64,000 bases of DNA from a virus. Of the stretch, positions 21,451-47,211 are shown piece by piece; positions within the stretch are counted from its first letter, which is position 1; the number at the start of each line of letters is the position of its first letter. Below the pieces are notes generated by a model, which worked only from the letters and a program-made list of their open reading frames with translations, was not told the origin of the DNA and did no database searches. Where the stretch lies: the IMG/VR virus record IMGVR_UViG_3300017987_000003, positions 124,001 through 188,000 of that record; one strand, 5' to 3'. The translations under genes and the position numbers were made by a program.

Positions 21451-22468
21451 CAAATTCAAACGGATCAAAGCTCTGAAATGCTTTAACCAGGTGGAGGAGA
21501 TGCTGTACGCGGGATTCCCCGTGGCAGCAGTAGCAAGCTACATCCAAGTCAGGATGAACGAATACAAAGATGTGAAGCGCGGCTCCCTGATTGTTATGTT
21601 GAAGATGTTCAGGAAGACGTTGAGCGTGGATGGGTTGGTGCGTTCAAGCCTTCCTCGTGTATTCGTGGATGCGGAGAAGAAATTCGCGAACAAAATGAAT
21701 GAGCTGGAGCGCTTGGAAGATCAGTATTTGCTGGACCAGTATCGGATGGATGTCCTTCATGGGGAGGAGCGCATGACGGGGGCGATTAATCCTCAAGTGG
21801 ATAAGATCGGCAAGTCGATGCGTGATACTGTTGTAAAGATGCACAATATCAAGATGGATCTGGGGCTTGTTGGCTCTCGGGATCTGGGGACGATTACTGT
21901 GTCGGCGGAGCGTATTGAGTACATCAAAAATAAATATGGCGAGGGCGCTGCGAAGGCGTTTGCCGATCCTGTTTCTAGGGGCCGTGTGTTGGCTGCACTT
22001 AACGCTATCAGGCGTGCGGGTAATTTGCGCGATAAAGATGGGCAACCGTTGGAGCTTACACAGCACATGAAATTGTCTGATGAGGAGCGTGAAAAAATAG
22101 TAGATGTCGAATATGAGGTTACGGATGGCGATGATGTGCCCGACGATGATGGGGAGGGTGAAGGGTCAGCGGGTGACGGAGGGCCACCCGAGCCGCCTTT
22201 TGTGCCGCGTGGTGACGATTTGAATGAAGCCGAAGGCGAGGAGGATTATGACGAACGTGTAGAAGCTTTGTCGCCAGATCTTGAGCCAGGGGACGATGCT
22301 GTTCCTCCTCCAGTGAAGGATCCGCGTGTTGAGCCTGTGGAGATGGCTCCTGATCATGGGCGGATTGCGCCGAACTTGCCTCCTGGTCCAATGAAGCCAG
22401 GGATTCGTGCCAATGTTGAGAGTCGTATGACTACGAAGGTTCCGCCTAAGAAGGACAGTAAAGAGTGA
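21431..22468 (+). CDS. Candidate small terminase subunit
   Basis: 345 residues. The N-terminal ~70 residues are helical (CFNQVEEMLYAGFPVAAVAS), in the style of a helix-turn-helix, followed by a coiled region and a long acidic, Pro-rich disordered tail from ~230. Its position directly before terL, with a four-base overlap, is the usual place of the small terminase, which recognises packaging DNA. No sequence signature proves it; a general DNA-binding protein is the alternative. Confidence 0.5.
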   Translation: MAERAIDKFKRIKALKCFNQVEEMLYAGFPVAAVASYIQVRMNEYKDVKRGSLIVMLKMFRKTLSVDGLVRSSLPRVFVDAEKKFANKMNELERLEDQYLLDQYRMDVLHGEERMTGAINPQVDKIGKSMRDTVVKMHNIKMDLGLVGSRDLGTITVSAERIEYIKNKYGEGAAKAFADPVSRGRVLAALNAIRRAGNLRDKDGQPLELTQHMKLSDEEREKIVDVEYEVTDGDDVPDDDGEGEGSAGDGGPPEPPFVPRGDDLNEAEGEEDYDERVEALSPDLEPGDDAVPPPVKDPRVEPVEMAPDHGRIAPNLPPGPMKPGIRANVESRMTTKVPPKKDSKE

Positions 22469-24516
22469 TTATCACCAACAAGCACGGGCGTAAAAAATCC
22501 ATTGTTACGCCTGACGAGATTGATATGCGTGCTGGTGAGATTGTCTCTACTTTATCTGAAGCAGAACAGGAATTGTTTTTCGGGATGATTGACGGCGATG
22601 CTGAGGAGCAGATGTCAGTTACCGAGACGATGATGGAGCATCGCTATCACACGCAGCCTGTGTCGATGGAGCAATTCTTGGAGGATCCCTACTACCTTGG
22701 GGAGTCGTGCTCGACGTTGTATCCAGAGTTGCGGAAGGATCTGATTGATCTTTTTGACTATCCATATCGCGAGGTGGTGTTGACAGGCGGCATTGGCGTG
22801 GGCAAGACCTTCGTTCTTTCGATTGCCTTGTGCCGCGTGTTGTACGAGTTGTCATGCCTTGTGGATCCGCAGCGGACGTTTGGTCTGTCGTCGGGCACCG
22901 AGATGGTGATTCCGCTCATTTCGAAAAACTTGATTCTTGCACGTGAGGTGATGAAGACGGCGGTGGATGACAAGATCCGCGAGTCGGTTTATTTTATGGA
23001 GAAATTCGCTCCGAAGATCTCAAAAGAGAACACGGTTTTTCCTAACAATATTCGTGTAATTATAGGGTCGTACGGGTCGGAGCGTATATTGGGATCGAAT
23101 GTGTTTGCGGTGGGGTTGGATGAGACGAACTTTCCGCCTACGCGTAAGTCTCAGCAGATCACTACAGCGATTGGGCAACGCAAGACGGTTGCGCATTTCG
23201 ATCCCGTTGAGAAGGTGTATCGAAGCCTGTTGCGTCGTATCAAATCCAGATTTCAGAAGGCTGGAGGGGATTTCCCTGGGATGGTGATCTTGGCGTCGTC
23301 GGCTGCGACGCTGGAGAGTTTTACTGAGCGCAAGATGAAGGAGAGCGCGAACGATCCCGAGGTGTTTGTGCGTGATCATACGCCGTGGACTGCCAAGCCT
23401 GAGACGGAGTTTTGCGGTGAGAAGTTCTGGGTTATCTGTTCAACATCGTCTATCCGTGCGCGAATCTTGGATGAAGACGAGTATGACATGGTCACCGATG
23501 ATTACTTGCTGGAGAATGATGCATGGCTTATTGACGTTCCAATTGAATTTTTGAACGATTTTGAAACGGATCTGGAGAATGCTCTTCGAGATATTGCGGG
23601 TATTTCTACACAAGCAATTTCCGCGTTTATCCAGCGTGTTGACATGGTGGATAATTGTGCGGATGACAACTTGCCGCATGCGTTTTCGCTGGGGGAATGG
23701 ACGGCAGGCGGCCCTGGATCATTCAAGTGGAGGCAGCTGTGTAAGGAGTTCGAGCGCAAGCTTCCTGGGGGATTCACAGAGACGGCGTTCAGTCCTCGCA
23801 TCAACCCGAAGACATTACGTTGGTGCCATGTGGATACATCAGTCTCGGGCGACTGCACGGGATTTGCTGTGGGGCATATTGATCGTTGGGTGGAAGTTGT
23901 GCGTAGGGAGGGGGGCAACGAGCGGTACTTGGATGACGCGCCGTTTTACCATATGGACATTATTCTGCGGATCAATCCGCCGCCAGGCGAGCAGATATAT
24001 TTGCCTGATATTCGGCGCCTTGTGTACGAACTCCAGGCACATGGTTACAACTTTATGGGGTTCAGTACGGATAAATATCAGTACGTGGAAATGCATCAAC
24101 AGGTGAGGCGGAGGGGCATCCATTGTGAATTAATTTCGATGGACGAAAAAACTGATCCGTATGACGAATTGAAGCGTGCGGTGTACGAGGAACGCATACG
24201 CTATCATAGGTATGAGCCTTTTATTGAGGAGTTGAAGCTTCTGGAATATGATCGTCTTGTGGGTAAAATTGACCATCCCCAGGCTGGGTCAAAAGATGTT
24301 AGTGACGCCGTCGCTGGGGTAGTGTATGGTTTATTACAGGGTTCAGCGCGCTTGCCAATTGGCGTCGGAGCTGATACTCATAAGAGGAAGAGGCATGAAC
24401 ATGCGTGGGTGAGTCCTATGATTCCTGCATCGACGGTTGACATTGAAGAAGTTAGAGCGATGGCCGATGCGGCAACGGATGATTCGGATTTCATGCCTAT
24501 TTTGTTTGGAGACTAA
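22465..24516 (+). CDS. terL: Terminase large subunit
   Basis: 683 residues. VVLTGGIGVGKTFVLSIAL (~residues 104-122) is the Walker A motif; FAVGLDETNF fits Walker B (hydrophobics then DE); HVDTSVSGDCTGFAVGH begins the RNase H-like nuclease with its first Asp; KDVSDAVAGVVYGL carries the last acidic residue. The enzyme pumps DNA into the procapsid and cuts concatemers. GTG start, overlapping the upstream gene; the portal gene follows after three bases. Full length for the family. Confidence 0.95.
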   Translation: MIITNKHGRKKSIVTPDEIDMRAGEIVSTLSEAEQELFFGMIDGDAEEQMSVTETMMEHRYHTQPVSMEQFLEDPYYLGESCSTLYPELRKDLIDLFDYPYREVVLTGGIGVGKTFVLSIALCRVLYELSCLVDPQRTFGLSSGTEMVIPLISKNLILAREVMKTAVDDKIRESVYFMEKFAPKISKENTVFPNNIRVIIGSYGSERILGSNVFAVGLDETNFPPTRKSQQITTAIGQRKTVAHFDPVEKVYRSLLRRIKSRFQKAGGDFPGMVILASSAATLESFTERKMKESANDPEVFVRDHTPWTAKPETEFCGEKFWVICSTSSIRARILDEDEYDMVTDDYLLENDAWLIDVPIEFLNDFETDLENALRDIAGISTQAISAFIQRVDMVDNCADDNLPHAFSLGEWTAGGPGSFKWRQLCKEFERKLPGGFTETAFSPRINPKTLRWCHVDTSVSGDCTGFAVGHIDRWVEVVRREGGNERYLDDAPFYHMDIILRINPPPGEQIYLPDIRRLVYELQAHGYNFMGFSTDKYQYVEMHQQVRRRGIHCELISMDEKTDPYDELKRAVYEERIRYHRYEPFIEELKLLEYDRLVGKIDHPQAGSKDVSDAVAGVVYGLLQGSARLPIGVGADTHKRKRHEHAWVSPMIPASTVDIEEVRAMADAATDDSDFMPILFGD

Positions 24517-24519
24517 CGC

Positions 24520-27213
24520 ATGGCATGGCGTGACTGGATAAAGACATATCTGAAACGCGACAAAGAGACCAAGGTCGCGGATGAATCTCGTGGCGTCTCT
24601 ATCGGTACCCCACCGACGACGGCGGCGGGTGCCTCGATGGAGACGCATGGGAGCGGCTCTTCGATCCTGGGCGAGATGCTCGCGGTCGACACCGATCTTA
24701 TGCGGCGGTACGCGGATTACGAAAACATGGACGACTACGCGGAGACGTGCCTCGGTGCGGATTCGCTTGTTTTCACTGTTGAGCGTGGGTGGGTGCGGAT
24801 TCAAGAGTTGGCTGAATCGCGGGAAGATTTCCATGTTTTGGCCTACGATCGAGAACTCAGATCTTTGGTGCCTGCCAGGGGGTGTGACGCGAGGATGACG
24901 GGGAGACGTGGGCATTCTAAGCCCATGGTGCGTGTAGTTCTTGATGATGGCAGGGAAGTGCGTTGCACAGCAGACCATCTTTTCATGAGGAAGGATGGGT
25001 CCTGGGTGAAAGCTGCTGACTTATTGTGTGGGGATCGCTTGATGCCAGGGGTTGTGCGGATGCGGAGTTTAAATTCTGCTGAGAATCAACCGTACTGGCA
25101 AGTGCATCAGCCTCATTCGGATTCTCAGATTGAGGGGAGGCGCCAGGATCGCCAGCAGAGGTGGGTGTGGGTACATCGTCTTGTGGTCGAGTATATTAAT
25201 GGGGATATTGACGCTCCTCATGTTCATCACAAAGATGGAAACCCGCTCAACAATGCGCCAGGTAATCTTGAGGGCTTGAGTTTGTCGGAGCATGCCCATC
25301 GTCATATTGCGGGGATTGACAACAGTGAGCATTTTCCTGAGTGGACTGATGATCGTAGGGCAGAAATGGCTCTCCGTATGCAGGGGAATGCGTATAGGCG
25401 TGGGGCTGTAATGAGCGACCATGCTCGCCGCAAAATATCAGATGCACATACTGGGCGGTCCAAGAGCGAGGAGTGGAAAAAGAGGATCGGTTTGGCGCAA
25501 CCGAACCGTATCGATTTGAGACAAAAAGATGTAGAGGCCGCTCTTGAGTCTGGTGGAAGCGTGGCTGGTGCTGCGAGGATTCTTGGGGTTTCTTGGAGCA
25601 AGGCGAAGCGCGCAGCTGTCGAATATGATTTGCTGGCTGATGGGGGGAATCATCGTGTGATGTCGGTGGAGCGTGTTGCTGGTGGCGAGCCGGTTTATGA
25701 TCTTACCGTTCCAGGTTATTCGAATTTCGTGTGTAATGGAGTCGTGGTCCACAATTCGGCGGCTCTGGATATTTACGCGGACGACGCCACGATTCCCGAC
25801 AGTGTTCATGGTAAGACGATCTGGGGGACATCTCGTGATCGTGTGATTCGTGACATCATCGACGATTGCCTCCATCGGCGTTTGCGTCTTGAGGAAGATA
25901 TCTGGGTTGCGGTGCGTACGCTGTGCAAGTACGGCAACTGCTTCGCTGAGATTCTTGTTAATGAGATTGGTGTAGTTGGTCTGAATTGGCTCCCTGTTCC
26001 TACGATGCGTCGTATTGTGGACGAGAAGGGGGCTTTGATTGGTTTTGTGCAGGATACCACGGGCACATTTGGGTTTGATTATAAAGCCGTGGTTGCCGCG
26101 ATGAAGAAGAGCCGCCTCCCTGACGTTGAGGAAGAGGGTGGCAAGAATAAGCTCATCTTTTTCCGATCCTGGGAGGTTGTGCATTGGCGCCTCCGTTCGA
26201 AGATGATGCGGGCGCAGTATGGCTACAGCGTGTTGGATTCAGCGCGGTGGGTTTGGAAGCGCTTGCAGATGATGGAAGACACTGCGTTGGTTCAGAAGCT
26301 TACGCGGGCGCCTGGGCGATACGCATTTTATGTTGACACAGGAGATCTTCCGCCGAGGGAAGCGATGGCGCTGGTCAAGAAGGTGAAGCGCGCCTACAAG
26401 AAGAAGAAATTCGTTGATCCTGCGACGGGTCAGCTTGATTTCAAATACAATCCGCTGTCGCCCCACGAGGATTTCTTTATTCCTACGCGGGGTGGCAAAG
26501 AGAGCACGCGGATTGATGTTGTGTCTGGGCCTGATGTCCAGATGATGGACGATGTCGAGTACTTCCTGCGTAAATTGATTGCGGCCATCAAGATTCCTCG
26601 GAGCTATCTGGGGCTGGGTGAGGCAGCCGAGGAGACTTCGAAGTCATTGGCCGAGGCTGACGTTCGATTCGCGCGCGCGTGCATGCGTATTCAGCGCGAA
26701 TTCATCATGGGCGTACGGAAGATAATCCGTCTGCATATGGCGGCGCTGAACATTGATCCCGACTCGGTTGATTGGAAGATCAAGATGTCTGTGCCGAGTG
26801 CGATCTTTGAGATGCAGCAGGTTGAGCTGATGAATGCTCAGGCTGCGCTGGCGTCGTCCATGGCCGAATGGGCGAGCAAGCCGTGGATCTTGCAGCACAT
26901 CTTCCATTTCACCGAGGACGACTCGGCATTTATATGGCGTGAGAAGACTGAAGAAAACGACGAGACGGCGAAGAAGGATGCGGGTACCCAGGCGGACATT
27001 ATGCGGATGTATCCTGAATTGCAGGAGTTGCCTCCTGTGGGTGATGAGGGTGCTGTTGCCGAGTCGCAGATGGGTGCTGAGTTGATTGGTTTGAAGAAGG
27101 TGCTTCAAGAAACTAGTCAAACGTCTTCCGAAGTGGTAAAAAGATTCGAGAAGCTTGAGTCCCGAATGGTTAAATTGGAAAAAACCGCAAGGAGACGAGC
27201 TGTCTCGGGATAG
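24520..27213 (+). CDS. Portal protein, interrupted by an intein
   Basis: 897 residues as translated; removing the 336-residue intein leaves a 561-residue portal, close to T4 gp20-like size. The extein junction reads MDDYAET / SAALDIYADD, a conserved portal segment. Downstream, WLPVPTMRRIVDE, ARWVWKRLQMMEDT, the PTRGGKESTRIDVV clip region and IKIPRSYLGLGEAAEETSK match T4-like portals, which form the dodecameric channel at the capsid vertex. C-terminal coiled coil. Sits between terL and head core genes. Confidence 0.92.
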   Translation: MAWRDWIKTYLKRDKETKVADESRGVSIGTPPTTAAGASMETHGSGSSILGEMLAVDTDLMRRYADYENMDDYAETCLGADSLVFTVERGWVRIQELAESREDFHVLAYDRELRSLVPARGCDARMTGRRGHSKPMVRVVLDDGREVRCTADHLFMRKDGSWVKAADLLCGDRLMPGVVRMRSLNSAENQPYWQVHQPHSDSQIEGRRQDRQQRWVWVHRLVVEYINGDIDAPHVHHKDGNPLNNAPGNLEGLSLSEHAHRHIAGIDNSEHFPEWTDDRRAEMALRMQGNAYRRGAVMSDHARRKISDAHTGRSKSEEWKKRIGLAQPNRIDLRQKDVEAALESGGSVAGAARILGVSWSKAKRAAVEYDLLADGGNHRVMSVERVAGGEPVYDLTVPGYSNFVCNGVVVHNSAALDIYADDATIPDSVHGKTIWGTSRDRVIRDIIDDCLHRRLRLEEDIWVAVRTLCKYGNCFAEILVNEIGVVGLNWLPVPTMRRIVDEKGALIGFVQDTTGTFGFDYKAVVAAMKKSRLPDVEEEGGKNKLIFFRSWEVVHWRLRSKMMRAQYGYSVLDSARWVWKRLQMMEDTALVQKLTRAPGRYAFYVDTGDLPPREAMALVKKVKRAYKKKKFVDPATGQLDFKYNPLSPHEDFFIPTRGGKESTRIDVVSGPDVQMMDDVEYFLRKLIAAIKIPRSYLGLGEAAEETSKSLAEADVRFARACMRIQREFIMGVRKIIRLHMAALNIDPDSVDWKIKMSVPSAIFEMQQVELMNAQAALASSMAEWASKPWILQHIFHFTEDDSAFIWREKTEENDETAKKDAGTQADIMRMYPELQELPPVGDEGAVAESQMGAELIGLKKVLQETSQTSSEVVKRFEKLESRMVKLEKTARRRAVSG
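24748..25755 (+). mobile_element. Intein with HNH/NUMOD homing endonuclease in the portal gene
   Basis: 336 codons. It starts with Cys1 in CLGADSLVFT (block A). RCTADHLFMRKDGSW is block B with TxxH, and VYDLTVPGYSNFVCNG with VVVHN (blocks F and G) precedes Ser+1 of the C-extein. The middle has an HNH nuclease (HVHHKDGNPLNNAPGNLEGL), then NUMOD3-like DNA-binding repeats (MSDHARRKISDAHTGRSKSE) and a helix-turn-helix (GSVAGAARILGVSWSKAKRA). All splicing residues appear intact, so self-excision and homing are expected. Confidence 0.92.
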
Positions 27214-28084: not shown

Positions 28085-29098
28085 ATGGGAAAACGAGCAA
28101 TCCACACTTCTCTCGAAGAGGATCTTCAGAATCTTGGACTGCCAAGTTTCAACATGGCCGAGCAGGCTGCGTTGGGTGGCGTTCCTCTGACCGAGGAGAA
28201 GGACAAAGATGGTAGTGTCGCCGAGGGTGACGACGATCCCACATGCCCGAAGTGCAAAGCCAAGATGGAAGAGGGCAAATGCACGAAGTGCGATCATGTA
28301 ATGGAGTCCAAGGACGAAGATGTCGATAGCACCAATGCCGAGGATTCCGAAGGTGATGATCCCCTGGAGGGCGAGGTCGTCAACGAGGAGTTGTTCTCTG
28401 CGATTATGGAGCTGCCGTTCGAGGGGCTTCAGGCCGAGGATATCGAGGAGATTCTAGAGAAGCTTGCGGAGAAAAAGCTTCCCGAGGATTCCTCTGAAGA
28501 ACTCAAAGAGCGTGCCAATGAGGTCGTGGACTTCCTGCTGGCCGAGGTTGCCGCGAAAGTCACGCGCCGACACAAGGCAGGCAAGATGAGCGCGAAGAAG
28601 TCCTTCCAGTGTCCTCCTGGAACACGGCGTGTTGGTAAGACCCGCAAGTGTGAAAAAGCTGCGAAGGTTGCCGGTGGCAAAGGCAAGCTTATGAAGGAGA
28701 AGCGCAAGAAAGTCAGATGGGGCAAGAGTGGCCTGGGTGCGAAATCCCAGCGCAAGTCTGCCCGCATAGCGAAGCGTCGAGAAGATGTCGATTCTCCATT
28801 CGCGATGGAGCTGGCTGGGTTGCTGGAAGACAACCAGACGGAGGCGATCACGGTACGTGACGATCTCCTTGATCGTGTCGGCAACATCATGGAAATGCTC
28901 GCTGAGGAATTCGCAGATGAGGCTGTGACGCGGGTTCTGGAAGAGGCTTACGAGCCGATCGCGGCATCCTGGGATGCGGGGCGTCTGGACGAGGTCGTCA
29001 TGGACGAGGACGAGTTTATTGCTGAAATCAAGCCGGTTCTTACCCTGATCCACAAGTCGCTGGAAAAAATCGGGGCTGAGGAAGAACTGGGAAACTGA
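28085..29098 (+). CDS. Head core/scaffold-like protein, zero-frame form
   Basis: 337 residues. CPKCKAKMEEGKCTKCDHVM is a zinc ribbon at ~55-75; an acidic region follows; ~165-240 is strongly basic (FQCPPGTRRVGKTRKCEKAA, AKSQRKSARIAKRRED); the C-terminus is acidic and helical. Position between portal and prohead protease suggests an internal core protein, like T4 gp67/gp68 by place only. The stop TGA at 29096 directly follows a GGGAAAC slippery heptamer, so a longer product is predicted. Confidence 0.7.
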   Translation: MGKRAIHTSLEEDLQNLGLPSFNMAEQAALGGVPLTEEKDKDGSVAEGDDDPTCPKCKAKMEEGKCTKCDHVMESKDEDVDSTNAEDSEGDDPLEGEVVNEELFSAIMELPFEGLQAEDIEEILEKLAEKKLPEDSSEELKERANEVVDFLLAEVAAKVTRRHKAGKMSAKKSFQCPPGTRRVGKTRKCEKAAKVAGGKGKLMKEKRKKVRWGKSGLGAKSQRKSARIAKRREDVDSPFAMELAGLLEDNQTEAITVRDDLLDRVGNIMEMLAEEFADEAVTRVLEEAYEPIAASWDAGRLDEVVMDEDEFIAEIKPVLTLIHKSLEKIGAEEELGN

Positions 29099-29118
29099 CG
29101 AGCCGCCTCGGCGAGGCG
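29089..29118 (+). promoter_or_regulatory. Programmed -1 frameshift signal
   Basis: GGGAAAC at 29089-29095 is in the correct phase (G GGA AAC before TGA). After an 8-base spacer comes a hairpin CGCCTC-GGC-GAGGCG (29104-29118). This is the heptamer, spacer and stem layout of known -1 sites; the lambda gpG/GT site uses GGGAAAG. Confidence 0.75.
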
Positions 29119-29316
29119 AAATGGCGACGCCGTTTAGGGACATCGTCGGGGCGCAAGGAGCTGGTAGGGTTTGAGTCGCTCAAAAAAGCTGCTCGGGGTG
29201 ATGGGAAAAAGACGGATAGACGAGTCTCCCCTGAAGCCAAGAGGAAACTCGACAGGAACCCACTTGCACGAACATCGTTCCGGCGGTGGCGTGGAAAAAC
29301 TGGCAAGAGAGGGTGA
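29095..29316 (+). CDS. -1 frame extension of the head core protein
   Basis: 73 codons open in the -1 frame from the slip site to TGA at 29314-29316, five bases before the protease ATG, so it fills the gap exactly. No ATG, GTG or TTG occurs in the frame. Translation is very basic: 25 Lys/Arg against 7 Asp/Glu, with stretches such as GRKELVGFESLKKAARG, SPEAKRKLDRNPLA and SFRRWRGKTGKRG. The fusion would have 410 residues. A basic tail could bind DNA or the acidic scaffold. A competing open frame, in phase with the protease, also exists here. Confidence 0.65.
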   Translation: MTSRLGEAKWRRRLGTSSGRKELVGFESLKKAARGDGKKTDRRVSPEAKRKLDRNPLARTSFRRWRGKTGKRG

Positions 29317-29320
29317 TGAA

Positions 29321-30940
29321 ATGCCGAATTTGCTGATTGAATCAAGTCCCGTCCATCTTACGCTGACAGAAGGCGCGGGTGGAAAAACGATAGCTCGTGG
29401 CGAGTTCGGGCGTGTTGGCGTGCCGACTCAGAATGGGCGTATTTATCCCGAAGAGTTGATGATGCGCGAGATCAAGAGGCTCTCGGAAGATATTAGCAAG
29501 CGCAGAATCCTGGGGGAGCTGGACCATCCGACCGATGGTAAGACTTCTCTGAAGCGCGTCTCCCATGTGATCACTGGGCTCAAAATCAAGGACGGTATTG
29601 TCGTTGGGGAGGCTGAGATTCTCAACACGCCCGAGGGTAAAACCTTGAAGGCGCTGATCGAGGCGAACGTACAGATCGGAATCTCCTCACGGGGATTTGG
29701 GTCTACGCGGCCATCGGAGGATCCGAAGATTGAGGGCGAAGTCGTACAGGGTGATTTCGTCTTGAAGACCTGGGACTTTGTTGCGGACCCCGCGATGAAG
29801 ACTGCGGTGCCTGGCATTTTCACTGAGGATGTCGATGAGAATCAGCCCGACGTGGCCCAGCTGTTCCTGGACGAGTTTCCTGAGATTGCTGCTTCCTTGC
29901 AGGAAGATGCGGTTACCAAGGCGAAGCTCAAGGTCAACAAGGGTGTCGATGAGGCGGTTGCCGAGGCCGAGTCCCGCGTGCGCGAGGAGATGACTGAGGC
30001 GTTTGAGAAGAAGTTCGCTGGTGCTTTGCTAGAGACGAAGGAGACGATTGCCGAGGAGCTGCGCGAGGAGTTTGCGGCTGATCCTGACATTGGGGGTGCG
30101 AAGGCGGTGCTGGCTGCTGTGTGGGATATGGTTGCACCGTTTCAGGCGACGCCAGATGAGAAGGCAGCGTCTGACGCGGTCAAGGCCAGGGAGCTGGAGG
30201 TTTCCGAGGCCAAAGAGTCGGCCAGGGAGAGCGAGGAGCGTGCGGTCCGTGCTGAGTGTATGGAGTACATTGAGCGCGAGATCGGTGGTCATCCGATGGC
30301 TGAGTCGATTCGTAAATTGGTGTCAAAGCAGCAGTTTGCTGGCCTGGATGATGCCAAAGAGAAGCTCGCTGCGATTCTTGCGGATCTCCCCGAGCGGACG
30401 GACGAAGGAATGGTCTCCGAGGAGGAGGCCGAACTGAGAGAAGAAAACGCAGCAATGCGTGAAAAGGTGTCCCTCCTTACGGAGAGGGTAGAAAAGCTGG
30501 ATGCGAAACTGAAGAAAGCTGTAGAGGTAGGAATGGAGGCAGATTCTCAGCGACAGGATGCTGAGAGCCGCGTGGAAGAGGCCGAAAAAGAGAGAGACAA
30601 CGCCCTGGAAGAAGCGACAAATGCAGAGGCGAAGCTCGAACTTGAGGTCTACAAACACGATAAGGTTGTGGGATTGTCAAATGGTAGAGAGTTGCTTGGT
30701 CTCATGGAGGATATAACTTCACGGGCCGCAGTTGACAGGTTGGTGACGAAGGATGGAGTCAAGGATGTCTCTGAGCGGCGACTCGCGGATGCGCGTAAGA
30801 GTTTACAGCGTGGCGTGGGCGAGCGGCAGGAGAAAGAACAGCTGAATGAGGGTGTCAGAGCTTCGAGGAGTCCCAAAAAGGATGATCTCGGGAATGACAT
30901 GGGTCTCATGAAGCGATTGGCGGGTGTCTCATTAGAGTAG
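29321..30940 (+). CDS. Prohead protease fused to a scaffold-like coiled coil
   Basis: 539 residues. The N-terminal ~180 residues match T4 gp21-type prohead core proteases: GRIYPEELMMREI, RRILGELDHPTDG (catalytic His) and VQIGISSRGFGS (catalytic Ser). The remaining ~350 residues are acidic coiled coil (EEAELREENAAMREKVSLLT), like a scaffold core protein. One polypeptide thus seems to combine T4 gp21 and gp22 roles. ATG 29321 is chosen for its GAGAGGG site; an upstream TTG at 29171 is in frame but overlaps the frameshift extension. Confidence 0.85.
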   Translation: MPNLLIESSPVHLTLTEGAGGKTIARGEFGRVGVPTQNGRIYPEELMMREIKRLSEDISKRRILGELDHPTDGKTSLKRVSHVITGLKIKDGIVVGEAEILNTPEGKTLKALIEANVQIGISSRGFGSTRPSEDPKIEGEVVQGDFVLKTWDFVADPAMKTAVPGIFTEDVDENQPDVAQLFLDEFPEIAASLQEDAVTKAKLKVNKGVDEAVAEAESRVREEMTEAFEKKFAGALLETKETIAEELREEFAADPDIGGAKAVLAAVWDMVAPFQATPDEKAASDAVKARELEVSEAKESARESEERAVRAECMEYIEREIGGHPMAESIRKLVSKQQFAGLDDAKEKLAAILADLPERTDEGMVSEEEAELREENAAMREKVSLLTERVEKLDAKLKKAVEVGMEADSQRQDAESRVEEAEKERDNALEEATNAEAKLELEVYKHDKVVGLSNGRELLGLMEDITSRAAVDRLVTKDGVKDVSERRLADARKSLQRGVGERQEKEQLNEGVRASRSPKKDDLGNDMGLMKRLAGVSLE

Positions 30941-30969: not shown

Positions 30970-32604
30970 ATGGGCAACGAAAGTACAGAAGCCAGGGCTC
31001 TCTTGGAGCAAGCTGGTCCGAAGACAATCCACGACAATAGCTATGCCAGCGCTTGTGTGAGCAAGTGGGGCGAGTTACTGGAAGGTATTCCTGTAGAGCA
31101 TGATCGTGGCTACACCAAAAAAGCAACGGCGATTCTTCTGGAAAACGAGATGGAGCACATCAAGTCTTTCCATGAGGATACTCTGAGCACCAATGCGGGT
31201 TCGTTCACGAAGTACATCTTCCCGATCCTGCGGAGGGTGTTCCCGAACCTGATCGCCAACCAACTCGTCTCGGTTCAGCCGATGACGGCGCCGGTAGGAG
31301 GCATCTTCTACTACGAGAAAAAGTACGATGATCGCAAGGGTACGAAACTACCCCAGTCCGCGATCACCAACACCCCGACAGACGCGAACTACGACGGTGA
31401 GCTGGACGCTGGTGACAACATCAACCAGAACTTCGCCAAGTACTACAGCTCGGAGTTCATCGACTACGACGCGATCTGCACGGACACGGGTGTAGCGACT
31501 TCTGGTGCGATCACGAACGCGTCGGCCAATTCTCGCGTTCCCGAGTGGAGCCCAATTCGCGCGCCTGCGACTGCTGGTCAGCGCACTTTCTACGTGCGTG
31601 TGTACTACCGCATGTTGGACGCTGACGCTGCGAGCGCCCCGACCGAGGTCATGGCCGAGCTGGACCCGACTGGTGCCACTACCAACCTGGTCGACAACAC
31701 GGCGAACACCAACACCGTCGGGACCTTCAACGTGACCACAGGTGCATGGTCGGTTAATGCGGCTGGTTCCGCTGGTACCAACAGCCCCTTCGCCAACAAC
31801 ACAGTCATCTATGTCCAGTACTTCGTGAACTGGGAGCTGGTGGGTTACACCACGGGTGCCGAGATCCCGAGCATCAGCCTGGACATCGCCCTTCACACCG
31901 TGCAGGCCGAGAGCCGCAAGCTCAAGGCTCGCTGGACGGTAGAAGCGGTCGATGATCTCCGTGCGCTCCATGGCATGGATGCCGAGGCCGAGCTGGTCAT
32001 CACCTTCTCGAACGAGGTGATGCTGGAAGTGGATCGTGAGATTATCGGTGATCTCATCAACGGTGCGGGGCATTCGATTCCTTACGCCTACGCCCCAGGC
32101 ATCCCTGGTGAGCTGGAGAGCATCCGTCGGCTGATCACCCAGATCAGCGCGATGTCGGCTGAGATTCACAGGACTTCTGGCAGGGCTCCTGCCAACTTCC
32201 TGGTTGTGCCTCCAGGCATCGGTGGGCTCCTCGACCAGCTGTCGACTCACGGCGACTACGCCTCGATCGAGCAGAACGTCCAGGCGACGAGCTACGGCCC
32301 TGTGACTGCCAACTACGGCATCGCAAGGATCGGTACGCTGCTCCGCAAGTACGCGGTCTACCAAGATCCGTACATGCCCTCCACGCAGATTCTGGTGGGC
32401 CTCAAGGGGAACAGCTTCATCGATGCGGGCTATGTGTATGCGCCATATGTGCCGCTGCAAGTCACCCCGACTTTCCTCGATCCCAACGACTTCACGTTCC
32501 GCAAGGGCGTGAGGACTCGGTACGCGACACGCATGCTGCGTCCCGAGTACTATGGCGTTATCAACGTCACTGGTCTGCCCGTAGTCACTACGTCCTTGCC
32601 ATAG
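30970..32604 (+). CDS. Major capsid protein (T4 gp23-like)
   Basis: 544 residues. NSYASACVSKWGELLEGIP at the start, then LRRVFPNLIANQLVSVQPMT, PVGGIFYYEKKYDDRKG, LKARWTVEAVDDLRALHGMD and NFLVVPPGIGGLLDQL match the T4-like HK97-fold capsid family. Insertions near residues 180-310 (Thr/Ala-rich) may be surface domains. N-terminal processing by the protease just upstream is likely. A strong terminator follows, fitting high expression. Confidence 0.93.
   Translation: MGNESTEARALLEQAGPKTIHDNSYASACVSKWGELLEGIPVEHDRGYTKKATAILLENEMEHIKSFHEDTLSTNAGSFTKYIFPILRRVFPNLIANQLVSVQPMTAPVGGIFYYEKKYDDRKGTKLPQSAITNTPTDANYDGELDAGDNINQNFAKYYSSEFIDYDAICTDTGVATSGAITNASANSRVPEWSPIRAPATAGQRTFYVRVYYRMLDADAASAPTEVMAELDPTGATTNLVDNTANTNTVGTFNVTTGAWSVNAAGSAGTNSPFANNTVIYVQYFVNWELVGYTTGAEIPSISLDIALHTVQAESRKLKARWTVEAVDDLRALHGMDAEAELVITFSNEVMLEVDREIIGDLINGAGHSIPYAYAPGIPGELESIRRLITQISAMSAEIHRTSGRAPANFLVVPPGIGGLLDQLSTHGDYASIEQNVQATSYGPVTANYGIARIGTLLRKYAVYQDPYMPSTQILVGLKGNSFIDAGYVYAPYVPLQVTPTFLDPNDFTFRKGVRTRYATRMLRPEYYGVINVTGLPVVTTSLP

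Positions 32605-36709: not shown

Positions 36710-47211
<10,502 letters not shown>

Follow-up and report, generated by a model that had tools for sequence, protein, structure and literature searches.

A very probable programmed -1 frameshift at the end of a prohead core gene, and a basic, putatively cleavable protein it may carry into the head of T4-like phages

Introduction

How could a phage express a reading frame of 73 codons that has no start codon and lies between the end of a head core gene and the gene for the prohead protease? This question is raised by a locus in a 64,000-nucleotide stretch of viral DNA, called the window here (positions 124001-188000 of IMG/VR record IMGVR_UViG_3300017987_000003, which has 194,905 bases). 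The original prediction was that a programmed -1 frameshift adds this frame as a basic tail to a head core protein, and that the minor, extended form enters the prohead.

In tailed phages, programmed frameshifting is known from the tail chaperones, and the shell proteins of T7 and Listeria phage are the main other cases. Xu, Hendrix and Duda are said to have described in 2004 the frameshift of the lambda tail chaperone gpG/gpGT and its relatives, which a review also covers (PMC5009743). No case of frameshifting in prohead core or scaffold genes was found in the open-access literature.

Results

The core gene and its neighbors

The window contains a T4-like head module made up of terminase (22465-24516), a gp20-like portal split by an HNH intein (24520-27213), a gene of 285 amino acids, the core gene, a gp21-like prohead protease and a gp23-type capsid protein (30970-32604). 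The core (scaffold-type) gene is located on the plus strand at 28085-29098 (frame 0), encodes 337 amino acids with a pI of 4.75 and ends in G_GGA_AAC TGA. It sits between the portal and the gp21-like protease, as do the prohead core proteins of T4. The protease (29321-30940, plus strand; Peptidase_S77) is 539 amino acids long, including a C-terminal scaffold-like extension. Relatives in IMG/VR share the same gene layout. The capsid protein shares just 31-37% identity with its best matches in the phage collection. Judged by its sequence, the phage is therefore of a T4-like lineage that has no close cultured members in that collection. The clade is known from uncultured phages only, with no isolate in the collections searched.

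AlphaFold gave a helical, partly confident model of the core protein (pLDDT 77.8), and a structure search with this model found no neighbor below E 0.6. Homology of the core or tail to T4 gp68 was considered and not detected: profile comparisons with a single T4 sequence gave probabilities of 0.2 and 0.1 percent, and a distant relation is possible. Searching INPHARED for relatives of the core and tail produced none beyond chance, and a scan of GTDB genomes produced none. No significant tail domain was detected in six frames of regions fetched from T4, P-TIM68, S-SCSM1, MED4-213, Cr30, 121Q, Mel-JY01, RM378, Streptococcus and Stenotrophomonas phages, and two megaphages. Separately, codons ~54-71 of the core gene encode a four-cysteine, zinc-ribbon-like motif, CPKCKAKMEEGKCTKC, which is present in L001, L002, L008 and L015 and absent from L003 and L005.

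The junction in the window

Re-reading the sequence confirmed every element of the predicted junction. The slippery heptamer G_GGA_AAC (29089-29095, plus strand) is in phase with the core gene, and the frame-0 stop, TGA (29096-29098), directly follows it. After a spacer of 8 nt comes a candidate stimulatory hairpin, CGCCTC-GGC-GAGGCG (29104-29118), with 6 bp and a GGC loop. The -1 frame extension (29095-29316, plus strand) reads LTSRLGEAKWRRR...GKTGKRG and stays open for 73 codons before its stop, TGA at 29314-29316, with the protease ATG at 29321. This frame has no in-frame ATG, GTG or TTG. Its product is strongly basic, with a pI of 12 and 25 Lys/Arg versus 7 Asp/Glu in 73 residues.

As a bare word, GGGAAAC occurs 7 times in the window against 8.9 expected and so shows no enrichment, and the case for it rests on position, phase and conservation, not on word frequency. 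Only 1 of 268 open -1 runs in ten neighboring genes reaches 73 codons, and canonical in-phase heptamers occur within core genes at a background rate of ~0.0007 per codon. Both are rare, and therefore the junction is not a product of chance. An upstream Shine-Dalgarno-like stimulator was also looked for. Its signal is weak (13 of 31 junctions, against a background of 19%) and is confounded by Glu-rich codons.

Conservation of the heptamer and the -1 frame

Related phages were collected from IMG/VR in scans that took the core protein, the tail and broader tail alignments as queries and produced over one hundred loci. The first round gave 43 loci, 27 of them distinct. G_GGA_AAC was invariant in all 27 distinct junctions, at core identities down to ~28-35%. 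In these first-round loci the tail was always in frame -1 relative to the core, and the frame-0 stop came directly after the heptamer or one codon later in most of the relatives. Overall, a canonical in-phase heptamer lies within the overlap at 31 of the 34 non-redundant junctions, compared to 0.38 expected from the core-gene background. Where GGGAAAC is replaced, this occurs at single junctions, by A_AAA_AAC (L063, L087), C_CCT_TTG (L065) or A_AAA_AAA (L104). In two further loci (L159, L160) the tail has diverged beyond the reach of the profile, and the peptides of both frames imply the same heptamer.

The canonical heptamer is absent from L088, L089 and L107 despite a conserved -1 tail. C_CCT is found in all three overlaps, and we speculate that slippage of one tRNA at this site may serve there. 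Several of the most distant relatives (L171, L179, L182, L194) are without a clear-cut junction, and we count this against the account preferred below. Other distant loci (L174, L177, L187, L190, L195) have possible slippery words of other kinds, AAAAAAG, CCCTTTC, GGGAAAA and TTTTTTT, farther from the stop.

The tail is conserved as protein. Among close relatives, tail identity is 84-92%, compared to 56-66% for the core (L001-L005, over the alignment). Across 11 close relatives, the -1 frame has a pN/pS of 0.17 and zero stops, and broken frames of the kind that would speak against the prediction were thus not found among them. The two other frames contain 21 and 52 stops, with pN/pS values of 1.66 and 2.14. 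These values show that the -1 frame is under purifying selection. The original prediction had cautioned that the frame in phase with the protease is also open in the window. This is the frame with 21 stops and a pN/pS of 1.66 in the relatives, indicating that it is non-coding, and an N-terminal extension of the protease within it was rejected on the same grounds (stops in relatives, pN/pS above 1).

Several other readings of the overlap were tried. A CTG at 29095 (codon 3) was rejected as a start, since it is CTG in ten relatives and CTA in L003. A start codon of the tail's own was rejected for the window clade, as none is conserved among the relatives. The conserved GATAGACGAGTCTCCCC stretch was striking enough in five relatives to suggest an additional element, yet its codons vary in eleven. 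The comparison of related phages that had been proposed as a check thus found the heptamer and the -1 frame conserved and a start codon not conserved. Together, the conserved heptamer, the coding -1 frame and the missing start codon strongly support a programmed -1 frameshift at the end of the core gene, which these alignments make very probable.

RNA structure downstream of the heptamer

For its 27 nt, the hairpin in the window is the most favorable fold (-9.7 kcal/mol), with a z-score of -0.88 against shuffled sequences, which is not clearly better than chance. Over 45 nt, a different fold beats the 6-bp hairpin. To survey the family, 45-nt windows around the junction were folded in 28 loci less than 80% alike. 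Directly past the heptamer the mean z-score is -1.46 ± 0.24 (s.e.), versus about -0.2 at most other offsets. The stems in the relatives differ and do not form one conserved helix. The predicted stimulatory hairpin is therefore present as a local fold and is not unusual alone, the structure signal being significant only family-wide. We read this as a family-wide need for downstream structure, which may be satisfied by varied hairpins.

In E. coli, heptamers ending in AAG are the most shift-prone, above A_AAA_AAC (PMC5009743). The efficiency of slippage at G_GGA_AAC in the host is therefore uncertain. Among haloarchaeal viruses, HCTV-1 and HCTV-2 shift at precisely G_GGA_AAC and A_AAA_AAC (PMC5009743), both of which also occur at the present junctions.

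The tail domain and a predicted protease site

RKRRTAYSSGRREL.GFE is common to the aligned tails, as are a basic middle part and a terminal ARTP....WRK, with a conserved motif RRxGTSSGRxE...DGKKTDRRVSPEAKRKLDRNP.ART. The tail has zero matches to Pfam or PHROGs families, and its AlphaFold model is of low confidence (pLDDT 65, pTM 0.24). Judged from charge alone, it probably binds DNA.

Directly before RKRRT and the basic domain, the tails carry L/I-x-E, followed mostly by Ala or Gly. The motif was present in 21 of 26 tails at the first count (shuffled mean 3.0) and in 47 of 60 at the final count, where 2000 shuffles gave a mean of 7.7 and a maximum of 20. It is a short motif; in a minority of the tails, the L/I position is taken by V, F or another residue, or the motif is missing. 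In the window it is Leu-Gly-Glu, in the -1 frame at 29107-29115 (plus strand). Cleavage at this predicted prohead-protease site would release a basic peptide of 66 amino acids, with 24 Lys/Arg and 6 Asp/Glu (29116-29313, plus strand). The capsid protein has a predicted site of the same type, Leu-Leu-Glu at 31135-31143 (plus strand; ILLE/NEMEH, where the slash marks the cut), which is conserved in the clade. A fixed [LI]xE (AILLE/NE and variants) lies ~20 residues before the mature domain of the clade's capsid protein, the start of which we presume from T4 gp23.

In T4, the logo of the gp21 protease is L/I-X-E, and the core proteins are cut by this protease (PMC9026906). T4 internal proteins reach the core by means of leaders of 10-19 residues, which the protease removes (PMC9026906). 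The original prediction of a DNA- or scaffold-binding tail that enters the prohead holds with respect to the basic charge and the prohead-core gene slot. We refine it to cargo that is probably protease-cleavable, and not only a permanent binding tail.

Relatives in which the domain is its own gene

A further scan used only the protease and was thus free of bias towards the tail. In nearly all relatives it retrieved, the tail domain adjoins the protease upstream; L191 appears to lack the domain. Within one subclade the domain stands as a separate gene, the start of which overlaps or closely follows the upstream stop. These stand-alone proteins have leaders of 10-15 residues with L-x-E-type ends, namely MSLIPLSLLLGE/G, MSWVPLEWLFE/A, VILIPLSALLGE/G and MLIRLSDLIE/G (the slash marks the leader end). 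With its own leader, the domain therefore needs no frameshift.

In a midpoint-rooted protease tree, which has weak deep support, all tail-bearing phages are separate from six reference T4-likes. The frameshift forms fall on both sides of the main split, and the own-gene forms fall within one part. Homologues with a start codon and no heptamer, which had been named as evidence that would count against the frameshift, do exist, but only in this separate subclade. They appear to point to the function of the tail rather than to refute the frameshift.

Discussion

We propose that, at the end of the core gene, a fraction of the ribosomes slips one base backwards on G_GGA_AAC, assisted by RNA structure just downstream, and would then add 73 residues from the -1 frame. 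The majority would end at TGA and produce the plain core protein. The minor core-tail fusion would join the prohead core through its core part. There, the prohead protease would cut past Leu-Gly-Glu, seven residues beyond the slippery codons, freeing a 66-residue, strongly basic peptide within the head. This peptide would be an internal protein that probably binds DNA. The ratio of cargo to scaffold would be set by the frameshift. We regard this whole account, a frameshifted core carrying a cleavable basic internal protein, as likely. The heptamer, the -1 coding frame, the structure, the conserved cleavage motif and the synteny are strongly supported by the sequences compared; from them we infer that ribosomes slip in the cell, that the fusion is incorporated and cleaved, and that the tail binds DNA. 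Carriage, cleavage and DNA binding taken together, as suggested by motif, synteny and charge, seem reasonably probable.

Other explanations share some of this evidence. The frameshift could be real and the tail could stay attached, so that the basic arm of a minority core subunit binds DNA, the portal or the shell and is degraded with the core. All of the evidence for frameshifting applies equally here, and the C-terminal half of T4 gp68, whose gene occupies the same position, is basic and in frame. We consider permanent attachment unlikely, since L/I-x-E is retained in 47 of 60 tails though the linker around it varies, and the leader of the free-standing versions ends at the same place, which cleavage fits better. 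It is also conceivable that the frameshift serves chiefly for translational coupling. Ribosomes in the -1 frame would stop 5 nt upstream of the protease ATG and could thereby set protease output, with the tail sequence being secondary. The tail does stop within a few bases of the protease start in many relatives. However, coupling would not need a particular sequence, and the tail is 84-92% conserved, versus 56-66% for the core, with a pN/pS of 0.17, which makes coupling as the main purpose very unlikely. Coupling as a side role beside the function of the tail is possible.

The remaining alternatives involve no ribosomal frameshift. The -1 frame begins at the core stop and finishes just before the protease start, and one subclade has stand-alone genes with ATG or GTG starts, as would be expected if the frame were an independent short gene, read by ribosomes that reinitiate past the core stop at a non-standard start. 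This is highly improbable given that no ATG, GTG or TTG precedes the domain in the window, L065, L089, L097, L104 or L107, that the CTG is not conserved (CTA in L003), and that the invariant heptamer and its slippery replacements would be left without explanation. Transcriptional slippage could also shift the frame. GGGAAAC has runs of only three and is hence a poor site for it, so it is unlikely there; at the A6-A7 variants it is possible. That the window record holds a misassembly or a gene broken only recently has nothing in its favor except the frame change itself. Dozens of independent contigs show the same -1 relation and refute it, leaving it a vanishingly small chance.

Cleavable carriage by a frameshifted core resembles several known systems in part. 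As in lambda gpG/gpGT, a morphogenesis gene would give a minor, C-terminally extended form by a -1 slip close to its 3' end, at a heptamer of the GGGAAA type. Lambda G/GT lies between the tail tube and the tape measure, whereas the gene here lies between the portal and the prohead protease, and the core gene does not have the position of a lambda-type tail chaperone. The extension here is also basic and apparently protease-cleavable, unlike that of gpGT. In T7 gene 10A/10B, a -1 frameshift likewise gives an abundant head protein a C-terminal extension, but 10B is a shell variant that is left in the capsid, and here the carrier would be an internal core protein whose extension has a predicted cleavage site. 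T4 gp67/gp68 occupy the same slot, between portal gp20 and protease gp21, and combine acidic and basic segments; no frameshift is annotated there, and the basic part of gp68 is in frame, in contrast to the -1 tail of the window. The stand-alone forms are laid out like T4 IPI-IPIII, in which a short leader ending in the protease motif precedes a small internal protein (PMC9026906). The whole core protein, attached by means of the frameshift, would take the place of this leader in the window clade, and the likeness to IPI-IPIII noted here is one of leader layout.

In retroviral Gag-Pro-Pol, a frameshift on a structural scaffold sets the ratio of a co-packaged passenger that the protease releases. 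The virus here is unrelated, its passenger would be a small basic peptide and its protease has its own start codon. If our account is true, this locus would be a phage counterpart of Gag-Pol co-packaging, and programmed frameshifting would occur in the prohead core of a broad T4-like lineage, tied to proteolytic maturation. Frameshift delivery would offer a phage an uncomplicated means of fixing how many internal proteins each head receives. We lean slightly towards the more general reading that this lineage uses its scaffold as the carrier of a packaged basic protein, with the frameshift setting the ratio and the protease freeing the cargo, and that delivery of the cargo has switched between frameshifting and a separate gene that supplies a targeting leader of its own. 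Since the domain is frameshift-coupled in some phages and its own gene in others, it can be used as a natural experiment. A conserved small protein family is also added, which was overlooked by standard annotation because most members are without a start codon and a Pfam or PHROGs match.

Other features of the head module

The intein of the gp20-like portal gene (24520-27213) is in frame and contains an HNH endonuclease, with the splicing domain at about residues 91-412. At the position of this intein, the portal of L108 has a gap of ~960 bases, suggesting an insertion. The protease and a scaffold-like coiled-coil are encoded in a single ORF (29321-30940), while gp21 and gp22 of T4 are separate genes. 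In L012 and L041 the protease ORF is 930-931 amino acids long, compared to ~540 in relatives, probably due to inteins or other insertions. In L080 the protease match begins ~1.4 kb past the tail, probably due to an intein or another insertion inside the prohead protease. Further downstream, the window encodes an 865-amino-acid collagen-like protein with Gly-X-Thr repeats (36758-39355), which is probably a fiber or decoration protein.
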